DNA of 64,000 nt from Strigamia acuminata (Eukaryota; Arthropoda; Chilopoda; Geophilomorpha; Linotaeniidae), in assembly GCA_949358305.1 (NCBI GenBank), contig OX442315.1:20362427-20426426 (forward strand), written 5' to 3'. This document shows positions 5,106 to 60,602 of the stretch, in pieces. The notes under the pieces are model-generated. The model was not told the origin of the DNA and searched no databases. It saw nothing but the letters and a program-made list of their open reading frames with translations. Every line of letters starts with the position of its first letter. The stretch's first letter is position 1. Position numbers and translations under genes: made by a program.

Positions 5106-7510
5106 ATGGCGGAACCGGGAGGCGCGGGGACTAAAATTTTAAAGAACACCAAAATTATTGTTTACGTAGAAGAAGCGATGGAAGATCTCATAGTCGTGTC
5201 CTTCACTTTCAGCGGAAATCTTTACCAAGGAGTTTTATTGGATGCAAGCAAAAAGTAAGTGCGAATTTTCTTATTCAAGTGAGTGACATACGGATTTGCT
5301 ATGTCGTTTCATAGGCGAGATCACCCAACATCTGTCCTCCACTTGTCGCCTCTCTCGTAAAAACTATTCAACCTACGAATACCATTTAAACGGCAAAATT
5401 TTTCAAAATTTTAGCTCTACCTGTTGGTTATCTTTTCAAATTTAAACAAACCACCGATCATTTTTTCGACTAAAATCAGATGGACACATTTCTGTTGTGA
5501 TTGAGAAAAATTTTCTTCGCACTTAAAACGAAAAATGTTTTAAAAAAATCAAGAAATTATAAAAATAAATTAGATTTTTATGAATTTTTTATTAAATCAC
5601 ATTAAATTACATTACATTAAATTAAATTATTTTATTTTCAAAGCAAAAAATCAACAGAAAATAAGCGTATAGCAGTAAATGTGATTTTTATTCGTGTTTA
5701 ATTCGGTGCATAATTGTATAAATTATAATGTTAAAAATTTTGAATTTTCAGAGGTGTTCCGTCCGGTGTGAATCCGTCATTGGTGGTGAGCGCGGATAAA
5801 AAGTCGGGACCCGACGACGGCGGGAACGGGGACCGCTTATACGCGGTTAGTCAGCGCCACACATACATGCAAGGCGTCGAAAATGAATCTCCAAACAACC
5901 AAATGTCGAACCTCAGAAGGCCATTTAAAAGTTTCAAAGACCGTAATGTGCGTACTATGAGGTTGCGGCCTCGACAAGTGCTCTGCTCGAAATGCCGGAG
6001 TATTTGCAACGAAAATTCGGAAAACGTTCAGCACTCGACAGCCACCATTACGAAGGCAAGCAGCGCACCTTCCATACAAAGGATCGCGGCGGAAAATAAA
6101 GAAAAATACCGACTCAAACCGCGATCGGAACCCATCGCTTCCATAACCGAAAACAATGCGTCATCCGCCGATGGATTGTCGAGTCCGCGCACCAACGGAG
6201 TCACAACCACCGCACCAACCATTTTAAACGTGAATACGATGAGCAGTCGAAGAGTTCTGCGCAAACGACGCGCGAACGATCTTCCAACTTGCGTAGAAGA
6301 GGACGAAGTGAGCGCTCGTCGCAAGAAGAGCGAAAAGGAGGAAATTACTGAGGAATCAAAAATGACTATTTTAAAAACGAGCCCGGTAATCAAGATTTCG
6401 TTCGGTCCTCACGGACAGGGAACGGTTGTGAAAATACCCGCTCGTTCTCACACGTGCGAGGAGCAAAAAAGCGTCTCCAAAAGTGGGGATTTGGAACCGC
6501 AATTGAGCGAAGAGGAAACCAAAGTGGAAATGATTAACGAGAGCGAATTGAAACATCAACTTCAGGGCACAAAAGATGCGAGTGCTAAAGCGGCAAAGAA
6601 AGCGTTGAAAAAGGCGAAGAAAGAGGCGCATCGGAAAGCGGGTCTGAATAGTATGTCGCCGTTACATAAAATCCACAAAAATCGACATCATAAGCACAAA
6701 TTCAAACACAAGCGACGCCATCGCGAGGACGCCGAGAAGGAAAAGGGCGACGACGGAACGGGATCGGACAACAACGCAGTGGCGTGCGGCGAGACAAGAG
6801 ATGCCATTTGCAACCAACAGTTTTCTAACGTGGACTCGTGGAACGCGAACGCGAGTATTGCGCTGGAAGACTCGAACAAAAGTGAACTTTCGTCGTCGTA
6901 TAACGAAATCAAAAAGGAATGTTTGAGACAGAAACTTTCCATCAGTCTAAAACGACTGAATGCAAAGGCGTACACGAGATGCAACCCGGATGACAACTCG
7001 GGGTCGAGTCAAGCGGCCGCTTCGGACGCGTACGGCGCTTCCGACGACGAGACGAACGAGGGCGAGGTCGAAGGGGGCGGGGGCGAAGGCGAAGGGGACG
7101 AGGAAGAAGAGCCGATGGAACGAGTGAAGCCGCTCATGATGAGAATCAGCTCGCACAACGTGGATACGTGCGCCATTGGCAACGGACGAACAATGGCGGT
7201 CGGGGATATCGTGTGGGGGAAGATTCACGGGTTCCCGTGGTGGCCGGGTAAAGTCTTGTCCATTACAGTGTCACAGAGAGACAATGGAGTTTTGATTACG
7301 CAGCAAGCGCATGTGGCTTGGTTCGGTTCGTCGACTACGTCGTACATGCCGTGTAATCAGTTGGTTCCATTTCTTGAATATTTTAAAACTAGGTATAATA
7401 AGAAAAAACGGGGTCCTTATAAAGAAGCGATTAAACAAGCTACGTTAGCGGCTCAGCAGGTGCTAAGACAAATGCATGCTAGTGTGAGTGTTGTGAGTCA
7501 ACAAGCGTGA
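5106..7510 (+). CDS. PWWP2: PWWP domain-containing protein 2 (PWWP2A/B family)
   Basis: Two exons, 5106-5254 and 5752-7510, give 635 residues. Exon 1 carries the PWWP2-type N-terminal block (IIVYVEEAMEDLIVVSF, then SGNLYQGVLLDASKK), the counterpart of the vertebrate IEDALVVSFRFGEKLF region. The long second exon is mostly charged and disordered, with a Lys/His-rich patch near residues 310-335 and a Glu/Gly-rich run before the C-terminal PWWP domain (about 530-620). That domain contains VGDIVWGKIHGFPWWPGKV and the aromatic residues expected for methyl-lysine binding. In vertebrates PWWP2A/B bind H2A.Z nucleosomes and methylated H3K36 and recruit NuRD-type complexes; a chromatin role here is inferred from homology. 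Coding GC content is much higher than in the neighbouring genes, mainly within exon 2. Confidence 0.93.
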
Positions 7511-10204: not shown

Positions 10205-10756
10205 TCAAATTACAAGCTGCTTCCTAACATTATGATTCATAAACAACAACTGACCATTGGGCAAAAACTGATTTACAACATTTTGGATTTTGTCAGGAAA
10301 TAAAAGAGCGCTTTTGGGTTGAAATAGAAGACTATGTTCTCTCAACAAGTGGTTGCATAAAATTGCCATACAGTTCGTTGCCAAAAGTCTATTTTCGTGC
10401 GTCGAAATTACTAGAGAAAACGCGATGTGTAAACTCGCACGCCAAACAACAACCAGCGGAACTGGAGATGAACAAATTTTATGGTTTTCATCGGCTGCGA
10501 TGAAGAAAATCCCCGAATCAGCTTCTGGAATTGCACTAATTGCATCCACCTCGTCCAAAGCATCGTCAAAACTCTTGTTGCTCGATGTGCGTTCAAATTC
10601 ACACTCCGATTGTACACGTGCAGCGATAACACTAAAAAACTTCTTCCTCTCTTCTCTCGACATTTCATCGTCGCCTGCCACACTGCCAAACGTTTGCGTG
10701 TAAAGCATCTTCAGCGATTTAGGTCCTACGTTGTGTATGAGGAAAGCGAATACCAT
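10205..10756 (-). CDS. AP5S1: AP-5 complex subunit sigma-1
   Basis: This is a single uninterrupted 183-residue frame. It begins MVFAFLIHNVGPKSLKMLYT and ends with a PNGQLLFMNHNV block, both matching AP5S1 (vertebrate MVHAFLIH... and PHGQLLFLND). The middle HENRLLATN also corresponds to HENLLLAEN. AP-5 is a late endosomal adaptor-like coat that works with SPG11/SPG15 in retrieval from late endosomes; the sigma subunit forms part of the small-chain core. AP-5 is missing from several model invertebrates (known for Drosophila and C. elegans), so its presence is notable. TTC1 lies 138 bases downstream on the same strand. Lack of introns could be ancestral or mean a retrocopy, but the frame is intact. 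Confidence 0.85.
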   Translation of the reverse strand: MVFAFLIHNVGPKSLKMLYTQTFGSVAGDDEMSREERKKFFSVIAARVQSECEFERTSSNKSFDDALDEVDAISAIPEADSGIFFIAADENHKICSSPVPLVVVWRASLHIAFSLVISTHENRLLATNCMAILCNHLLREHSLLFQPKSALLFPDKIQNVVNQFLPNGQLLFMNHNVRKQLVI

Positions 10757-33607: not shown

Positions 33608-36600
33608 ATGTTAACTTCGGAGCCTCATATGCCGCCTTCAGTGGCTTTAAAATGGGACCCAAAAAATTTGGAGATACGAACCCGTTCGGTCGAAAAAACA
33701 TTGGAACCTTTGGTTATACAGGTAAAAACAGATTAAATTTATTCAAAATAAAACCGAATTAACGAGTAATTGTTGTGTTTAGGTGACCACTTTAGTCAAT
33801 ACCAAAGGTCCGTCGAAAAAAAAGAAGGGAAGGTCGAAAAGAGCACACGTATTGGTGGCAGCCGTTGAAAAAGCAACAGAAAATTTTATCGAAAGAGGCG
33901 AACAAATTGCGTACGAAAATCCCGACATCAAACAGGAAATGTTGTCTGCTGTTGACGAAGTCCGAAAAACGGGTAAACTTGAGACAATTCGAGACAATTT
34001 TTCGTCTCTTTGTTTTTTTAAATGAATATTTTGAAAATAGGTGAAGCTATGAGTGTTGCTGCCCGTGAATTTGCTGACGACCCATGCTCGTCGTTGAAAC
34101 GTGGCAATATGGTTCGTGCGGCACGCAATTTGTTGTCGGCTGTCACTCGTCTACTCATTTTGGCCGATATGGTTGATGTTCATTTGTTACTTAAATCGTT
34201 ACAAGTGGTGCGTAAATTAAACAAATTGTGAATACATTTAATTTTTACTGACGTTTTAAATGTATTTTCTAGGTGGAGGATGATCTTGAGAAAGTAAAGA
34301 ATGCTTCAAGTCAGTCGGAACTGCTTGATTCCTTCAAACAGTTTGGCAGAAATGCTGTAGAATTGATTCAGCAAGCCGCTAAACGACAGGCTGTAAATAG
34401 ATTTTGTATTAATTTAACGATTATCAAATGCTTAATGGTTATTAAACTCGTAGGAATTGAAAGATCCTCGTCTTCGTGATGATTTGGCAGCTGCACGTGC
34501 TGTTCTGAAAAAACACAGCATGATGCTTTTGACTGCATCGAAGGTACAGCTATGAGTTATGCATAATCTACATAATGCTTTTTTTTTCTTTACAATCGCA
34601 ATTATTTATGTTTTGATTGATGAATTAATTGTGCAGGCATATGTTCGCCATCCGGAATTAGCAGCTGCAAAGGCTAATCGCGATTATGTCTACAAGCAAG
34701 TGTGTGAAGCTGTCAACACGATTTCCGATGTTGCTCAAGGCAAACCTTCCAATGGAGCACTTACTCCTGCGCCCTACGACGGACCAGGGGAACTTGCTGC
34801 AGCACTTGATGATTTTGACGTACATTAATTTCTATTTTTAAATAACTGAATTGTTAAGTTTGACCGTTTTGCAGGAACGAATTATTATGGATCCCTTGAC
34901 CTACAACGAAGTTCGAACTCGACCGTCATTAGAAGAGCGGCTCGAAAGTATAATTAGTGGAGCTGCTCTAATGGCGGATTCTTCGTGTACCCGTGACGAG
35001 CGCCGAGAACGAATTGTGGCGGAATGCAACGCCGTGAGACAAGCGTTGCAAGACTTGCTTTCGGAATACATGGCGAATGTTAGCTTCGTAGTCGTGATTT
35101 TTCATGGACGTTTTGCTTAAATTTTAATTTTTGTCACTTTAGGCTGGCAGGAAAGAACCGACCGAATCATTAGACAAGGCCATTGAACACATGTGCCGCA
35201 AAACGCGAGATCTGCGACGTCAGTTGAGGAAAGCAGTTGTTGATCACGTGTCGGACTCATTCTTGGAAACAAACGTTCCACTTCTTGTTCTGATTGAGGC
35301 TGCTAAAGCCGGCAACGAAAAGGAAGTGGAAGAATATGCCCAAGTCTTTACGGAACACGCCAATAAACTAGTGGAGGTGATTTATATTTAGAAAAAGTTG
35401 ATAATTTTTCATTCTATTTTATTTTAATTTAATTGTAGGTGGCAAATTTGGCATGTTCAATGTCAAGTAACGAAGATGGTGTTAAGATGGTGCGTTATGC
35501 GGCAGCTCAGATTGAAATTCTATGTCCACAAGTATGCCAGTTCATTTGTTTTGCCGTATTCACGTTAATTTAATTTAATTTAATTTTTTTTAGGTGATAA
35601 ATGCTGCTCGTATTTTAGCAGCACGACCTCGCTCTAAAGTCGCGCAGGAAAATATGGAAGTCTTCAAAGAGGCTTGGGAAAACCAAGTTCGTATTCTTAC
35701 TGAAGCAGTTGACGATATAACTACAATCGACGATTTTTTGGCCGTTTCTGGTAATTCGGAAGAAAATGAAATTTTTTTTTGCGATTTTTGTTGAATTTAT
35801 TTCTTGTTTAGAGTCGCACATATTAGAAGACGTGAATAAGTGCGTACTGGCGCTTCAAGAAGGAGATGCAGACACTTTGGATCGCACAGCAGGAGCGATT
35901 AGAGGTCGCTCTGCTCGTGTTTGCAACGTCGTTACTGCGGAAATGGATAATTATGAACCGGGGATTTATACAGAAAGGGTTCTGGAAGCTGTTGCAGTTC
36001 TGCGTGACCAGGGTAAACAATCGTTAATGAAAAAAATCAGTTCTGAAATACCGAGTTGCTAAAAATTGTATTTTATTTTTTTAGTTATGCCTAACTTTGC
36101 CCAACGTGTGGAAATTGCTGTCGACGCTCTGAGCACCAATCCGGCTAAAGATGTTGATGAAAACGAATTTATCGATGCATCTCGTTTGGTCTACGATGGT
36201 GTTCGTGAGATACGACGTGCTGTTTTGCTGAATAGGGTAAAGAGGAGGCTTTTGGCATGATTTTAATTATTTATTTCACTTAATTACCGTATATATATTA
36301 CGTGAATATAATATACTTTTGGGTGAATTCTCTTCAGACTGAGGATGAATTAGATCCTGAGGAAATAATGATGGTTGATGAAAACACCACGATCGAAACG
36401 CGAAGCAAATGTAAGGCAATGTAAAGGTTTGATTATTTGCCTGCTTGCTTGTTCGTAGCTTGTTTGTTTGGGATTGAAAATTGAAAACGATCAATTGATT
36501 TGTTTGTTATTGAATGAAGTATATAATTGTGTATACATTTTTTGCTTTATTGAATGATTTTTAATTTAAGCCTGTTGAATGTTTGCTTACGATCCTCGCT

Positions 36601-38051
36601 TTTTTTTGCTTTTATTTTGTTGCATGTAGACTGCAGAAGAATTGGATTCTGAAACTGAAATTGAGTATGAAGATAATACGTATGATACTCGAAGCAAATG
36701 TAAGCAGTGGTGTTCATTTCTACTGTAATTTTGTTTTGGTTTCGGTGCGCTGCTTTTTTATGACTTTATTCGCTCGTTTGTCATCATCTTGCATGCAAAC
36801 TGTCAAATTAATCGTTACTTAGATGAGTTTAAAGTTTTTAATATATGTTTTTAAATTTCAGCCAGTGTCCATACCGAGCATGATGAATATCCTGATATTA
36901 CTGGCATTAATAACATACGTGTAAGTATAGTAGATTTTTTTGAATGTCTTAGAAAAATACCCGTTAAAAATGTTTTATATTGAATAACGATAGGATGCCA
37001 TGCGGCTTATGGCCAAAGAGGATAAAGAGAAGATCGCGCAACAAGTGGAAATATTCAGATCGGAAAAAAATAAATTTGATCTTGAAGTTGCGAAATGGGA
37101 CGATACTGGAAACGACATCATTGTCCTGGCAAAACACATGTGTATGATTATGATGGAAATGACAGATTTTACACGGTATTCTTGTCATCATTTGATTTAT
37201 TAAATTAAAAAATTTATTTATAATTTTTTTTTTAAATTTAATTTTAGTGGTCGTGGTCCATTGAAGACCACCATGGACGTAATAAACGCAGCTAAAAAGA
37301 TTTCGGAAGCTGGTACGAAATTGGATAAGCTGGCAAGGCAGATTGCTGACCAGGTACGATACTTCGTAGCAATATTATGAATTAATTTTTAAGTATTGTT
37401 ATTTATTGGATTATAGTGCCCCGAATCCAGCACTAAGAAAGACCTTTTGGCTTACCTTCAAAGAATAGCTTTGTATTGCCATCAACTCAACATCACCAGT
37501 AAAGTTAAAGCGGATGTTCAAAATATTAGTGGAGAATTGGTGGTGTCTGGGGTAATGTGATTTGATTTATAATTTTTGAGCTGATGGATTGAAATTAATG
37601 ATTAAATTGCAGCTCGATAGCGCTACTTCTTTGATTCAAGCCGCTAAAAACTTGATGAATGCGGTTGTTTTAACCGTAAAAGCATCTTATGTTGCTTCAA
37701 CAAAAGTAAGTCGAGAGACTTATTTATAAAATTGATTAAAGCGTATAATTTTTAATTTTTTTTATTGCAGTATCCCAGAAGTGGACGCATTAGTGTAAGT
37801 GTAAGAATCATTCGTTCAATTTTGTCCAAATAGTGTTTTATCTTTTACCTTTATTAATTTTTTTCAAATTTTTTTTTGTTTAACAGTCGCCTATTGTCGT
37901 TTGGAAAATGAAAGCTCCTGAAAAGAAACCGCTTGTCCGACGTGAAAAACCCGAAGAGGTTCGCGCTAAAGTCCGCAAGGGTTCTCAGAAGAAACACATT
38001 ACTCCGATCAAGGCTCTAAGCGAATTCCAAAGCCCTGCGGAAAACGTGTGA
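33608..38051 (+). CDS. alpha-Cat: Alpha-catenin
   Basis: Twenty exons are used per transcript and give about 913 residues: 33608-33721, 33783-33972, 34041-34207, 34273-34392, 34454-34543, 34637-34819, 34875-35078, 35143-35376, 35439-35531, 35594-35750, 35812-36012, 36085-36236, then 36338-36410 or 36630-36699, then 36862-36920, 36994-37175, 37248-37353, 37417-37551, 37613-37705, 37771-37794 and 37887-38051. It matches alpha-catenin throughout: the N-terminal beta-catenin-binding/dimer region, the central mechanosensitive M bundles (SLEERLESIISGAALMADSS, RKAVVDHVSDSFLETNVPLL), and the actin-binding C-terminal bundle (MCMIMMEMTDFTRGRGPLK, YLQRIALYCHQLNITSKVKA). It links cadherin-beta-catenin complexes to F-actin at adherens junctions. 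Two neighbouring homologous exons appear mutually exclusive (see findings). Exon 37771-37794 is only 24 bases and has a second in-frame donor six bases downstream. Confidence 0.96.
36338..36410 (+). CDS. alpha-Cat: Alpha-catenin alternative exon version a
   Basis: This 73-base exon enters in phase 0 and leaves in phase 1. It encodes TEDELDPEEIMMVDENTTIE then TRSK, the acidic linker between the middle and C-terminal bundles (vertebrate TPEELDDSDFETEDFDVRS). It competes with 36630-36699. Confidence 0.8.
36630..36699 (+). CDS. alpha-Cat: Alpha-catenin alternative exon version b
   Basis: This 70-base exon has the same entry and exit phase as version a and encodes TAEELDSETEIEYEDNTYD then TRSK. 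Joining a to b would shift the frame, so each transcript should contain only one. The two share the TxxELD start and the TRSK end. Confidence 0.8.
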
Positions 38052-38524: not shown

Positions 38525-39884
38525 TTAAAAACCATTTTTCTCAAAGTACATTTGCACTGATTTTTTTTCGTCCGAAGACGGGGGTAGTAAAGGTCTTCGA
38601 GGCTTTCCACCGTAATATCCTTTTAAATCCATGGCATATTTCAGACCAGGTATCCCATATTGCTTGGTAACCTGTTGAATTTCAGTTGAAATTAATCGTT
38701 TTTATCAAAGTAAAAAATAAATCATCTAAAATCTTACCGCTGTGTTAGGTGGTATTAAGCGGAATTGTAATTTCTGAGCGTCAACGAGTTTTCCGGCGTT
38801 ATAATTCTCATGCAAGTCGCAAATATCTTTTCCCAGCACATTTGCCAATGCACAAATCCCTCCAACAGCACCTGCAATGAGATTAGCACTCGTGAATAAA
38901 TAATAGCTAATTCTGTGAAAAACAAATACCAATAGTGTACGCAGGAAGCAGAAAACTGGCAGACCCTGCTAGAACTTGAAAATTCATCGATTTTGTCTTT
39001 GAGACGATGGATGCCATTTTTATAATCTACGGTACATCAAATAATAGATTGAAAATTCTAATTAATTTTTAAAATTCAATTCAAAACGTACATCGCCACT
39101 ACTATCTTTGAGACCAATAATGTTTGGATGATGAGCCAATTCAATAATTAATTCTGCAGGCATATCCACTCCTGTATTTGCAGGAACATTATACAAAATT
39201 ACGGGCAAAATATTTGCATCTGCAATCTGATTAAGCAAAAAAAAAAGGAAACACAAGATATACGTTTGTTACTAATTTCCTCACCTCTTTATAGAAATTG
39301 AAAAGGACATTTCTAGTCATTTGAGTCTTGTAATATCCAGGAGTTACAACTAAACTGGCATCAGCACCAAGTTTTGCAATTTGCTCGTTTAATTTCAATG
39401 TAGCCACAGTAGCTTTAATAAACGAAAAATAACTATAAGCACAGCAACAGTACATGTCATTTCAAAGTCAATAAAGGCTGTATTAGTACTAACAATCACG
39501 TCCAACACCAGCCACCAGTAATTTATCTTTGCCAACCAATTTTCTTACTCCTCTGAAAAATTCAACCTTTTCCTCAGCAGATAAATGAGCAACTTCTCCA
39601 TTCGATCCAAATACAACATACCCTAAGTTGAAAAAAAAGGTTTTAAAAATTTCATTAAACCTTCTAATATGCAAAATTGTACCTCTAAAAGGTATCGAGT
39701 TCCAAATTCGAAAATTCAATTCCAATTTGTCATAAGCTATGGACTGATCTTCATTAAAAGGAACAGTAATTGGAGGATAGACTCCACCTATCCCTTTTTT
39801 AAAACGGTGTTCGCTGTAAAAACGACACGAAGTTCTGGATAAATTAAATACTCGCCTAAATAAAGGACAACTGCAATTAGACAT
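38525..39884 (-). CDS. HOGA1: 4-hydroxy-2-oxoglutarate aldolase, mitochondrial
   Basis: Seven exons (39683-39884, 39500-39622, 39285-39412, 39092-39226, 38930-39026, 38738-38871, 38525-38671) give about 321 residues, close to the human 327. The N-terminus is rich in Arg/Ser (a likely mitochondrial presequence). It is followed by a DapA/NAL-family TIM barrel: GGVYPPITVPFNED, FGSNGEVAHLSAEE, VVTPGYYK with the conserved Tyr, ILYNVPANTGVDMP, and IIGLKDSSGDV with the Schiff-base Lys. FQVLAGSASFLLPAY and AVGGICALANVLG follow. The enzyme splits 4-hydroxy-2-oxoglutarate into pyruvate and glyoxylate in hydroxyproline breakdown. The junction between exons 2 and 3 loses a few residues relative to vertebrates (VGPTVATL versus a longer ESTQATV loop), so a microexon may have been missed there. 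Confidence 0.92.
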
Positions 39885-40299: not shown

Positions 40300-42634
40300 A
40301 TGAGTTCAATGTAAGTTTTTTAAGTACTGAAATGGTTACACCAAATTTCTATGAAAATTTAACTTTGAATAACATTTTTATAACTTTTTTAAATTACAGA
40401 GTTCAATGTCCAATAATTGAGACAACCGCTGATCCTTTCTCATCAACTTATGACGCCGTTGTTGTTGTTGCTGATGCGGAACATGTGGTTAAGCTTTTTA
40501 CCGGTCCATTTAAAACATTTTTAAAAGCACTTGATCAACAGAAACAGGTATAAACTGTCATAGATGTTTCGTTTTTTTCAACTGAATGAATGTTTTTGTT
40601 CTTTTGAATTAACTTCAGATCGATAAAAATGCTTTCAATGAACTTTCCCTTCTGTTTGTGCCTGATCTTCCGAGCCGTAGATTAATTTACTCACCAACTG
40701 GAAATTTGAAACGTCATATTGACGACGTTCGATGTGTTGGAGAAGCAGCAACAAAAGGAATTCAAAGGTCACGACTCAATCTCGCGTTATAATCGGTTAA
40801 AGATAAACAACACAATGCAATTTGATATTTTTGATTTGAACCATGCCTAAAAAGGTCAATACCAAATGATAACAATTTTTTTCCTTCATTTTAGAGCTCT
40901 TAAGGCTGGGAGCAAAAGTCCTTTGATTATTCCTATATTGGACAAATCATTCCCCAATTCCACACTGGTGGCCTTGTTGGGAGCTCTCCAAGGGCTCTAT
41001 GTGGTTTGTGATTTTTAATTGTACAATACCGGAAACTGTTGATTTATTTTCTGTATTCTACACCAGCCTCTCGAATGCAGAGAATTTTCGGACGACTTAA
41101 GCGTAAAAGTCATCAAAATAGGAATTTTCAGTGAAGTTGACATTGAAAAAACCATTTCCCTCGCAATTGGATTGGAATCTGGGCGGTAAACGTCAACCAT
41201 TGCACCGTAGAAATCATTTGTCAATTTGTACATTTTAATTTCAGATGTATTGCACGAGACATTGGCGGTTCAGACCCGGAGAGAATGGCCGCTCCCAATG
41301 TTGCTTCGTACGTGAAAAGTCTTTTTGAAGGATCAAGAGTCAAAGTTGATATTATAAGCGATCAAAGCGTGATTGCGCACGAGTTTCCACTTCTAGCAGC
41401 GGTTAATCGTGCAACTACGAGTAAACTAGTTATTATTTAAAAACTACCATCACAATAGTTAATTATTTTTTATTTAGATGTGGAACGACATAAGGCTAGA
41501 GTTATCCATTTAACCTACACTGGAGAGGGAAATATCGATACCACTCTAATGCTCGTAGGAAAAGGAGTTACTTACGACACGGGTGGTGCCGACATCAAGG
41601 CTGGCGGCATTATGGCTGGAATGCATCGGGACAAATGTGGATCCGCAGCCGTCGCTGGATTCTTTCAAGTCTGTTTCCAACATTTTATTTTTCAGTTTTT
41701 CCATGTTTCTAAATTAAAATTATTTCAGACCCTAAATATGTTGAAGCCTAAAAACATCAAAGTGATAGGAGCAATGGCAATGGTTCGCAATAGTGTCGGG
41801 TCGGGTAATATTTGTAGAAATTATGCCAATTTATAGCTTGGTTTAAAACAATCTTTCGTGTTTTTTCGTAGAATGTTATGTAAGCGATGAAATTATAACA
41901 TCGCGATCAGGAATGAGAGTACGCGTAATGAATACGGATGCTGAAGGACGAATGGCAATGGCTGATTTACTCTGCCTAATGAGAGAAAAGGTATGTCGCA
42001 CTCTTTATTTATTTATTTTATTAATTTATAAATGAATATTGTTAAATGTAGGCACAGAAGGAAGTGAATCCCCATTTGTTCACCATTGCTACGCTCACGG
42101 GACATGCTCATCTGGCAGTTGGTGAAGGCTATTCCGTAAGAACAAATTTTAACATTTAACTAAAAGTGGTGTATGAAATTTGTTTTGAAAAACAATAGAT
42201 TGTAATTGATAATGGGCCAGCTCATGTCGATAAATCCGCTGAGAAACTGCAAACTGCTGGAGATGGTCTTGCCGAGCCGGTCGAAATATCGACGTTGAGA
42301 CGCGAAGATTTTATGTTGAATAATGCGAAATCCGAATACGAGGATATAATGCAATGTAACACACTGCCATCTTCGCGCACTCCTCGTGGTCACCAGTTTC
42401 CTGCAGCGTTTCTTGTATCCGTTTCGGGTTTAGAGAAGGTAAATTTCCACATTTTTTTCGTCATTTCATAAAATGTTAATGAAAAATGTGAAATTTCAGC
42501 ACGATAAAAACTCCGAGAAACCGATCAAATATTCTCATCTCGATATTGCCGCTTCATCCGGTCCGTATCCAGGAATCCCAAGTGGGGCCCCGATATTGGC
42601 TCTGTCCGCTCGTTATTTACTCTCCAGAGTATGA
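40300..42634 (+). CDS. M17 leucyl aminopeptidase family, W07G4.4-like
   Basis: Twelve exons give about 518 residues: 40300-40310, 40400-40547, 40619-40767, 40895-41003, 41067-41185, 41245-41420, 41478-41668, 41729-41804, 41872-41990, 42052-42135, 42199-42438 and 42500-42634. The C-terminal catalytic half carries the di-metal peptidase motifs: VGKGVTYDTGGADIKAGG (metal-ligand Lys and Asp) and NTDAEGRMAMADLL (the family signature). MHRDKCGSAAVAGFF and IATLTGHAHLAVGEG lie near them. The overall architecture resembles the 'putative aminopeptidase W07G4.4' group known from nematodes and some other invertebrates better than classical LAP3. A cytosolic M17 peptidase removing N-terminal residues is the likely role; the natural substrate is unknown. 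The first exon encodes only the first residues (MSS). Confidence 0.88.
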
Positions 42635-59600: not shown

Positions 59601-60602
59601 TCACAGAGCGCACTCTTTAAGGATGGGAGATTTGTTATACGTGATACGTAAAGTCGTTCGATGAGGGCGCCACGTTCGTTTGCCGATTAAAATGCGCCTG
59701 AAAGCGCGGCGAAACTCCTGGTTAAATGTCGAGTAGATTAAAGGATTGAGAGCTGAGTTGCAATAACCCAACCATGTGAGGCCTTGAAAAACAGTGCGAG
59801 GTATGCAGGTCTTGCAGAAAGCGTCGATAATGTTGACGCAGAAAAATGGAACCCAACAAATGAGAAACACGCCCATAATTACACCCAACGTAACGGCGGC
59901 TTTGCCATCCGACGGCGACGGAGTTTGCGGAGAGTCCGGATGCAACGGCACGGTCATGGCTTTGATGTTAGCAACGTGGCGTTGCGCGTATCTATAAAGC
60001 TGAATGTACAGGCCTATCATTACCAAGCATGGGCCGAAGAAACTGATACAGGACGATATGACCGCGTAGGGCGGCGCCAAGTCCAAGGCGCACGTGGGTA
60101 ACGACTCGAGGAGCGGCGTCAAGGTTGGAGCTTGGTGCAGGTGCAGTCCGATCGGAACGAACGACATAAGCGCCGAAACTATCCATATTGATGCGATGAG
60201 ACTGACGACGACGCGTCGTGTCATGCATCGTGAGTATTTGAGCGGGTCTTTTATGGCGATGTAACGATCCAAACTGACGGCGCACAAGTGTAGGATGGAG
60301 GCGGTGGAACACATGACATCGAAGGCGACCCACGTGTCACAAAACTCGGGTCCGAAAGCCCAGTAACCCATAACGTCATTGGCAATAGCGAAACTCATGA
60401 CCAGGCAAGCGATAAATAAATCGGCGATGGCCAAAGACATTAAAAAAAGATTGCCCAATCGACGGAGAGTGCGCTCGGTACATATGGCAACACACACGAG
60501 TACGTTGCCGACTACGGCCATGAGCACAAGAAGCGAAAGGGCGACACCGACGGCCACGTCGCTCATTTGAATCACAATGTCTGAAGAAGAGCTGGAATTC
60601 AT
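59601..60602 (-). CDS. Dop1R1: D1-like dopamine receptor Dop1R1
   Basis: A 333-residue uninterrupted reading frame encodes a class A GPCR with seven hydrophobic helices. Helix 3 has WVAFDVMCSTASILHLCAVS with the amine-binding Asp and the DRY motif (LDRYIAI). Helix 5 has YAVISSCISFFGP with the catechol-contacting serines, helix 6 has FLICWVPFFCVN, and helix 7 has LGYCNSALNPLIYSTFN with NPxxY. The best fit is the arthropod Dop1R1/DopR branch (fly WVAFDVMCSTASILNLCAIS, CALDLTPTYAVVSSCISF), which couples to Gs and raises cAMP. Loop 3 (about 30-35 residues) and the tail are short, and the N-terminus is only about 20 residues with an NSS glycosylation site. A CTCATTTTCAG acceptor just upstream points to a spliced 5' UTR. 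Confidence 0.9.
   Translation of the reverse strand: MNSSSSSDIVIQMSDVAVGVALSLLVLMAVVGNVLVCVAICTERTLRRLGNLFLMSLAIADLFIACLVMSFAIANDVMGYWAFGPEFCDTWVAFDVMCSTASILHLCAVSLDRYIAIKDPLKYSRCMTRRVVVSLIASIWIVSALMSFVPIGLHLHQAPTLTPLLESLPTCALDLAPPYAVISSCISFFGPCLVMIGLYIQLYRYAQRHVANIKAMTVPLHPDSPQTPSPSDGKAAVTLGVIMGVFLICWVPFFCVNIIDAFCKTCIPRTVFQGLTWLGYCNSALNPLIYSTFNQEFRRAFRRILIGKRTWRPHRTTLRITYNKSPILKECAL

Follow-up and report, generated by a model that had tools for sequence, protein, structure and literature searches.

A possible arthropod splice switch between CK2-primable and non-primable linkers of alpha-catenin, dating from before the split of centipedes and insects

Background

Alpha-catenin forms a force-bearing link between cadherin junctions and actin. 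The control of its linker by two kinases was reportedly first described by Escobar et al. 2015. CK2 phosphorylates the linker of human alphaE-catenin at S641 and thereby primes S652, S655 and T658 for CK1 (excerpts of PMC12393524 and PMC11744050). The same excerpt of PMC12393524 ties this P-linker region to Afadin recruitment and barrier function, and its authors argue against a simple switch and call the logic of the dual-kinase linker a puzzle.

Tandem exons of which one is taken into each mRNA are known from several arthropod genes (e.g. 14-3-3zeta, Mhc, MRP1 and Dscam, according to the partial text of PMC6071210), and the pair of alpha-catenin exons of the centipede Strigamia acuminata that is analysed here, exons A and B, resembles them in that the exons are homologous neighbours of equal phases, one of which would be used per mRNA. 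A second described system is that of FGFR2, in which exons 8 and 9 combine a weaker upstream with a better downstream 3' splice site, as the alpha-catenin pair does; in FGFR2 and in the 5A/5B exons of C. elegans egl-15, UGCAUG is found in the intron before an alternative exon that is repressed by Fox proteins (PMC2880598 and PMC3585155, as excerpted). The gene is a different one and UGCAUG in alpha-catenin is a putative site, found as a sequence match only, and in egl-15 the repressed exon, 5B, is described as the upstream one (same excerpts). Within alpha-catenin itself the closest likeness is with the insect catenin alpha isoforms X1 and X2 (of e.g. Sitodiplosis, Papilio and Calliphora), which show the same A/B exchange. 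These are automatic records known from proteins alone, whereas in the centipede the order A-B of the exons can be read in the DNA.

Exon structure of the centipede gene

The window, a stretch of 64,000 nt of S. acuminata DNA, contains an alpha-catenin gene, the exon chain of which is our own reconstruction from gt/ag splice sites (Table 1). The best match of the encoded protein was the Catenin alpha of Strigamia maritima (P0001, i.e. T1JG57, a record that carries Pfam PF01044), with 99% identity over residues 560-760. There are three substitutions between the two in the first 850 residues (I654V, L709R and S780C) and a further difference at one micro-exon.

Table 1. The alpha-catenin gene and the surroundings of its two linker exons (positions in the window)
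Feature	Position	Strand	Remarks
Alpha-catenin coding region	33608..38051	+	21 exons (19 constant exons, A and B); gt/ag reconstruction
Constant exon before the pair	36085..36236	+	ends ...AVLLNR, phase 0
Intron before exon A	36237..36337	+	101 nt; GCATG at 36255
Exon A	36338..36410	+	73 nt, TEDELDPEEIMMVDENTTIETRSK; phase 0 in, phase 1 out; A-type linker
Intron between A and B	36411..36629	+	219 nt; the other 19 of the model's 20 introns are shorter
TGCATG (Rbfox-type motif)	36621..36626	+	4-9 nt before exon B, at the 3' splice site; candidate regulator
Exon B	36630..36699	+	70 nt, TAEELDSETEIEYEDNTYDTRSK; phase 0 in, phase 1 out; B-type linker
Intron after exon B	36700..36861	+	162 nt
Second TGCATG	36790..36795	+	91 nt 3' of exon B
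Constant exon after the pair	36862..36920	+	human S655 and T658 align within its SSVHT

Residue 709 (exon 36994-37175) is Leu in the window and Arg, before EVAKWD, in S. maritima and in most of the relatives listed; the Leu is a variant, a species difference or a base error. The micro-exon (37771-37800) has tandem donors (GTAAGTGTAAGA at 37795), giving 24 or 30 nt and keeping the frame either way, and the record of S. maritima fits the longer form with two residues differing. Elsewhere in the window we observed an intronless gene for a rhodopsin-family receptor of 333 aa (59601-60602, minus strand, PF00001), pieces of genes for a PWWP protein (5768-7510, plus strand), the AP-5 sigma subunit (10205-10756, minus strand) and an M17 aminopeptidase (41480-41836, plus strand), and a DHDPS-like match below the curated cut-off (39489-39884, minus strand; 18.7 versus 22.1 bits).

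A preliminary description of this DNA had proposed that exons A and B encode alternative versions of one linker, and the coordinates, lengths and phases that it gave for them all proved right when splice sites and translation were inspected. Both exons have AG acceptors and ordinary donors (GTAAGG and GTAAGC), with the common end CGAAGCAAAT followed by GTAAG, and the linkers that they encode are of nearly equal length (24 aa for A and 23 aa for B). The likeness of the two peptides is far above chance: aligned with BLOSUM62 they score 43, whereas shuffles of B scored -1.2 on average (SD 7.6) and none of 5000 reached 43. The linkers are nevertheless unlike at many positions, not at one.

Translation of the spliced model showed that either exon alone yields a full-length protein in frame, of 913 aa with A and of 912 aa with B. 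Joining both breaks the frame, as the preliminary description had it, and leads, after 666 codons, to a premature stop that lies in exon B, 7 codons past exon A; skipping both leads to a premature stop after 705 codons. A productive mRNA thus has room for one of the two exons only.

Linker types in related proteins

Three protein searches returned 1888, 218 and 479 matches, and the best 120 of each were taken, which gave 279 different proteins that were fetched and could all be assigned to a linker type by regular expressions. Each of the 279 has exactly one linker type, 151 of them A and 128 of them B among the matches listed, the A type being like TDEELDPEDVEFDEHYTIETRSK and the B type like TAEELDSETEIEYEDNTYETRSK or, in insects, SSEDLDTDTEFEPVEDLTLETRSR. 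That no fetched relative has both types or neither agrees with the mutually exclusive use that had been suggested for the pair. Both types are annotated within one species in at least 12 insects of several orders (Halyomorpha, Cimex, Gryllus bimaculatus, Periplaneta, Sitodiplosis, two Papilio species, Pieris, Episyrphus, Eupeodes, Cochliomyia and Calliphora; protein records among the matches listed). Ten A/B pairs of isoforms were compared, leaving out Gryllus and Periplaneta, the A records of which are odd gene models, and all differences of all ten lie in the linker or no more than two residues past it, again as expected of mutually exclusive exons. In both Halyomorpha and Cimex the A linker is followed by Ser, whereas the B linker is followed by Pro in the former and by Thr in the latter, probably because the exons leave in phase 1 with a different last base.

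Among the matches listed, only A was found in the named Hymenoptera (19 of 19) and Coleoptera (10 of 10) and only B in Drosophila (19 of 19), so many animals apparently manage without one of the versions. All 23 chelicerate and sea-spider proteins, picked by name among the matches listed, are of type B. Among the centipedes other than Strigamia, type B is represented by Hemiscolopendra marginata (and by P0003, which is assumed to be from a myriapod). In 11 genomic-looking proteins (P0138-P0149 without P0144) the B linker is continuous with the sequence of the upstream exon and is followed by ...RSKC.. and a stop; we read these as mite-like genes in which the linker would be fused to the preceding exon, with the same phase-1 donor behind it, and if this reading holds, exchange of exons would be impossible there.

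A separate cassette of 9-10 residues follows YMAN (residue 352) in several insect isoforms (P0019/P0020, P0029/P0030 and P0243/P0245). No exon for this cassette was seen in the window, where the intron at that place is 64 nt long (35079-35142).

The A and B isoforms are already present in public annotation, in automatic records, those inspected neither naming the pair nor saying what it means. Our literature searches found no paper describing a mutually exclusive pair in alpha-catenin, and the word 'catenin' is absent from the main text of the papers on the prediction or evolution of exon pairs that we examined. The pair had been put forward as one not familiar from alpha-catenin, which holds for the literature searched but not for the annotation; being old and widespread in insects and centipedes, the pair is not peculiar to the centipede genome.

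The CK2 position of the P-linker

The segment encoded by exons A and B is the first half of the alpha-catenin P-linker, so that its earlier placement between the M region and the actin-binding domain was correct and can be sharpened to a segment in which the exons differ at the CK2 priming position. We located human S641, S652, S655 and T658 on chain 6upv_M. S652 corresponds to the Ser of TRSK, which is present in both window exons, and the constant exon provides the counterparts of S655 and T658. At the position of S641, to be read with a tolerance of one or two columns, B types have LDSETE or LDTDTE and A types LDPEE or LDPED, i.e. in A a Pro with only acidic and hydrophobic residues around it and in B a Ser (Thr in insects) in CK2 context. 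The same is seen in the window, with Pro in exon A (TEDELDPEEIMMVDENTTIETRSK) where the CK2 acceptor would be and Ser in CK2 context in exon B (TAEELDSETEIEYEDNTYDTRSK).

A Ser or Thr with an acidic residue at +3 is found among the four residues that follow (E/D)LD in 127 of 127 B segments and in none of 150 A segments (2 of the 279 proteins were not measured), counts that are not independent, the segments comprising 62 distinct A and 38 distinct B sequences with many near copies, and that are partly definitional at the first of the four positions, since the types were sorted by Pro versus non-Pro. No Ser or Thr at all occurs within these four residues in any of the 150 A segments. The linker tree described below reproduces the split between Pro and Ser/Thr for its rows. 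Further past (E/D)LD, a minimal CK2 motif is present in 3 of the 150 A segments, that of S. maritima (P0001) among them, and T636, just before (E/D)LD, fits a CK2 motif in both window exons.

As compared with the vertebrate P-linker (excerpts of PMC12393524 and PMC11744050), the centipede exons encode the same protein segment, and B fits better than A, the human linker piece scoring 40 against B and 24 against A. In vertebrates it is phosphorylation that regulates the site, whereas in the centipede splicing would decide whether the site exists.

We consider it likely that exons A and B form a functional mutually exclusive pair derived from one ancestral P-linker exon, and propose that the choice between them would set CK2 priming. 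The ancestral exon for the first half of the P-linker would have been duplicated into A and B, both of which keep the last CK1 position (the Ser of TRSK), two more CK1 positions being encoded by the constant exon, and the variable part would correspond to the region of the CK2 priming site S641 of human alphaE-catenin. With B chosen, CK2 could prime the linker and CK1 could then phosphorylate it; with A chosen, it would not be primable at the S641-like site. The difference at this site may in this way matter for phosphorylation.

A somewhat doubtful but plausible alternative is that the splicing switch is real and that the exons tune the length, the stiffness or the partner binding of the linker rather than the CK2 site. 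Such tuning is consistent with the roles that the excerpted PMC12393524 gives the P-linker in recruiting Afadin and in the barrier, with the argument of its authors against a simple switch, and with the dissimilarity of A and B at many positions. In AlphaFold models of P0001 (A) and P0002 (B) the A linker has short, weak helices at 642-656 and the B linker is coil, but the pLDDT of these helices is near or below 50, the pTM is 0.42 for each model and the linker mostly has a pLDDT below 50 (649-677 and 650-681); the linker is probably disordered in both. The nearly equal lengths of A and B and the Ser/Thr difference held in all 277 proteins measured also argue against tuning as the main effect.

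Use of both exons in the centipede

We infer that both exons are spliced in the centipede. That one of them has instead dropped out of splicing in this lineage and survives as a relic is, in our view, unlikely. Such a loss would fit with the sole S. maritima record among the matches listed (P0001), which has A, with the divergence of the Strigamia A linker from the other A types (branch of 0.51 in the linker tree) and with the acceptor of exon A, the second weakest of the 20 in the gene. But frame, phase and splice sites are intact in both exons, the peptide of exon B is identical to the protein of Hemiscolopendra marginata in 23 of 23 residues, and that of exon A agrees with the S. maritima record in all but 1 of 24 residues.

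It is more unlikely still that the second exon mainly serves to produce A+B transcripts that are destroyed, in a poison arrangement that would set the level of alpha-catenin. The stop that A+B transcripts meet in exon B, 7 codons after exon A, is what such an arrangement would look like, but both single-exon proteins are annotated within the same species in at least 12 insects, and the conservation of the exon B protein in 23 of 23 residues would be needless for a mere poison exon.

Age and origin of the pair

A tree was made from the linker only (62 rows and 25 columns, with 60 hand-chosen proteins and P0071 dropped). All 29 A rows, Strigamia included, lie on one side of a branch with support 98/100, so that the A exon of Strigamia groups with the A types of insects. 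A constraint that made the five myriapod rows of both types a clade (P0003, the assumed myriapod, among them) was rejected with a p-AU of 0.0208 on the 25 columns. A recent local duplication or an assembly artefact, as might be suspected from two exons that lie 219 nt apart and share their last 10 nt, is contradicted by both results and is very unlikely.

The simplest reading of these linker sequences is one duplication before the split of centipedes and insects. When the tree was rooted with the human linker, insect B split first and A joined chelicerate and myriapod B (98/92; the bootstrap had not settled) in place of a plain division into A and B, an order that we put down to an artefact of 25 columns and one long root branch. 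Because the human piece is closer to B and the chelicerate and sea-spider proteins picked are all B, we take the B type to be probably nearer to the ancestral linker.

Splice regulation

In a crude position weight matrix built from the 17 other introns of the gene, the acceptor of exon A scored 1.3 and that of exon B 6.2, with pyrimidine fractions of 0.55 and 0.75, respectively. The three introns around the pair are longer (Table 1) than the 17 others (55-93 nt), and each of the three contains GCATG once, versus none of the 17 others (Poisson 0.0027 at the rate of the window, for a motif chosen post hoc). Two copies of the longer TGCATG are found in the three introns (0.026 in a shuffle test, the motif again having been picked after looking). 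Since two other 5-mers, ATATA and TTTGG, show the same pattern of 3/3 versus 0/17, GCATG is a lead, not a result. As to how the exon choice is made, a weaker idea would be that B is the default, having the better 3' splice site, and that an Rbfox-type protein bound to the UGCAUG at that site represses B.

We observed no excess of docking-site/selector pairing among the three introns: in a crude comparison on a single sequence, 168, 106 and 184 of 200 shuffles were as strong. A docking-site mechanism is therefore unsupported in the alpha-catenin pair, which in this respect, the lack of extra intron complementarity, is unlike the tandem exons in the partial text of PMC6071210. Rfam gave no matches within the window. 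Among other mechanisms that could keep A and B apart, incompatibility with U12-type splice sites was ruled out, both donors being ordinary GTAAG, and steric blocking was judged unlikely with 219 nt between A and B and constant introns of 55-93 nt.

Conclusions

Taken across the arthropods, we tentatively propose that alpha-catenin is subject to a splice switch that predates the split of centipedes and insects and selects either a linker open to CK2 priming or one closed to it. The exon pair itself is real and old, belongs to a central junction protein and is apparently without a description in the literature searched. If the proposal is true, not only kinases but also the choice of exon would set junction strength, and one state may have become fixed in whole groups (beetles and wasps A, and Drosophila B, among the matches listed). 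Drosophila, with only B among the matches listed, may not be representative of the insects that use A. The natural isoforms that differ at the priming site, kept in insects and a centipede, offer a ready comparison of alpha-catenin with and without this site, tissue by tissue.
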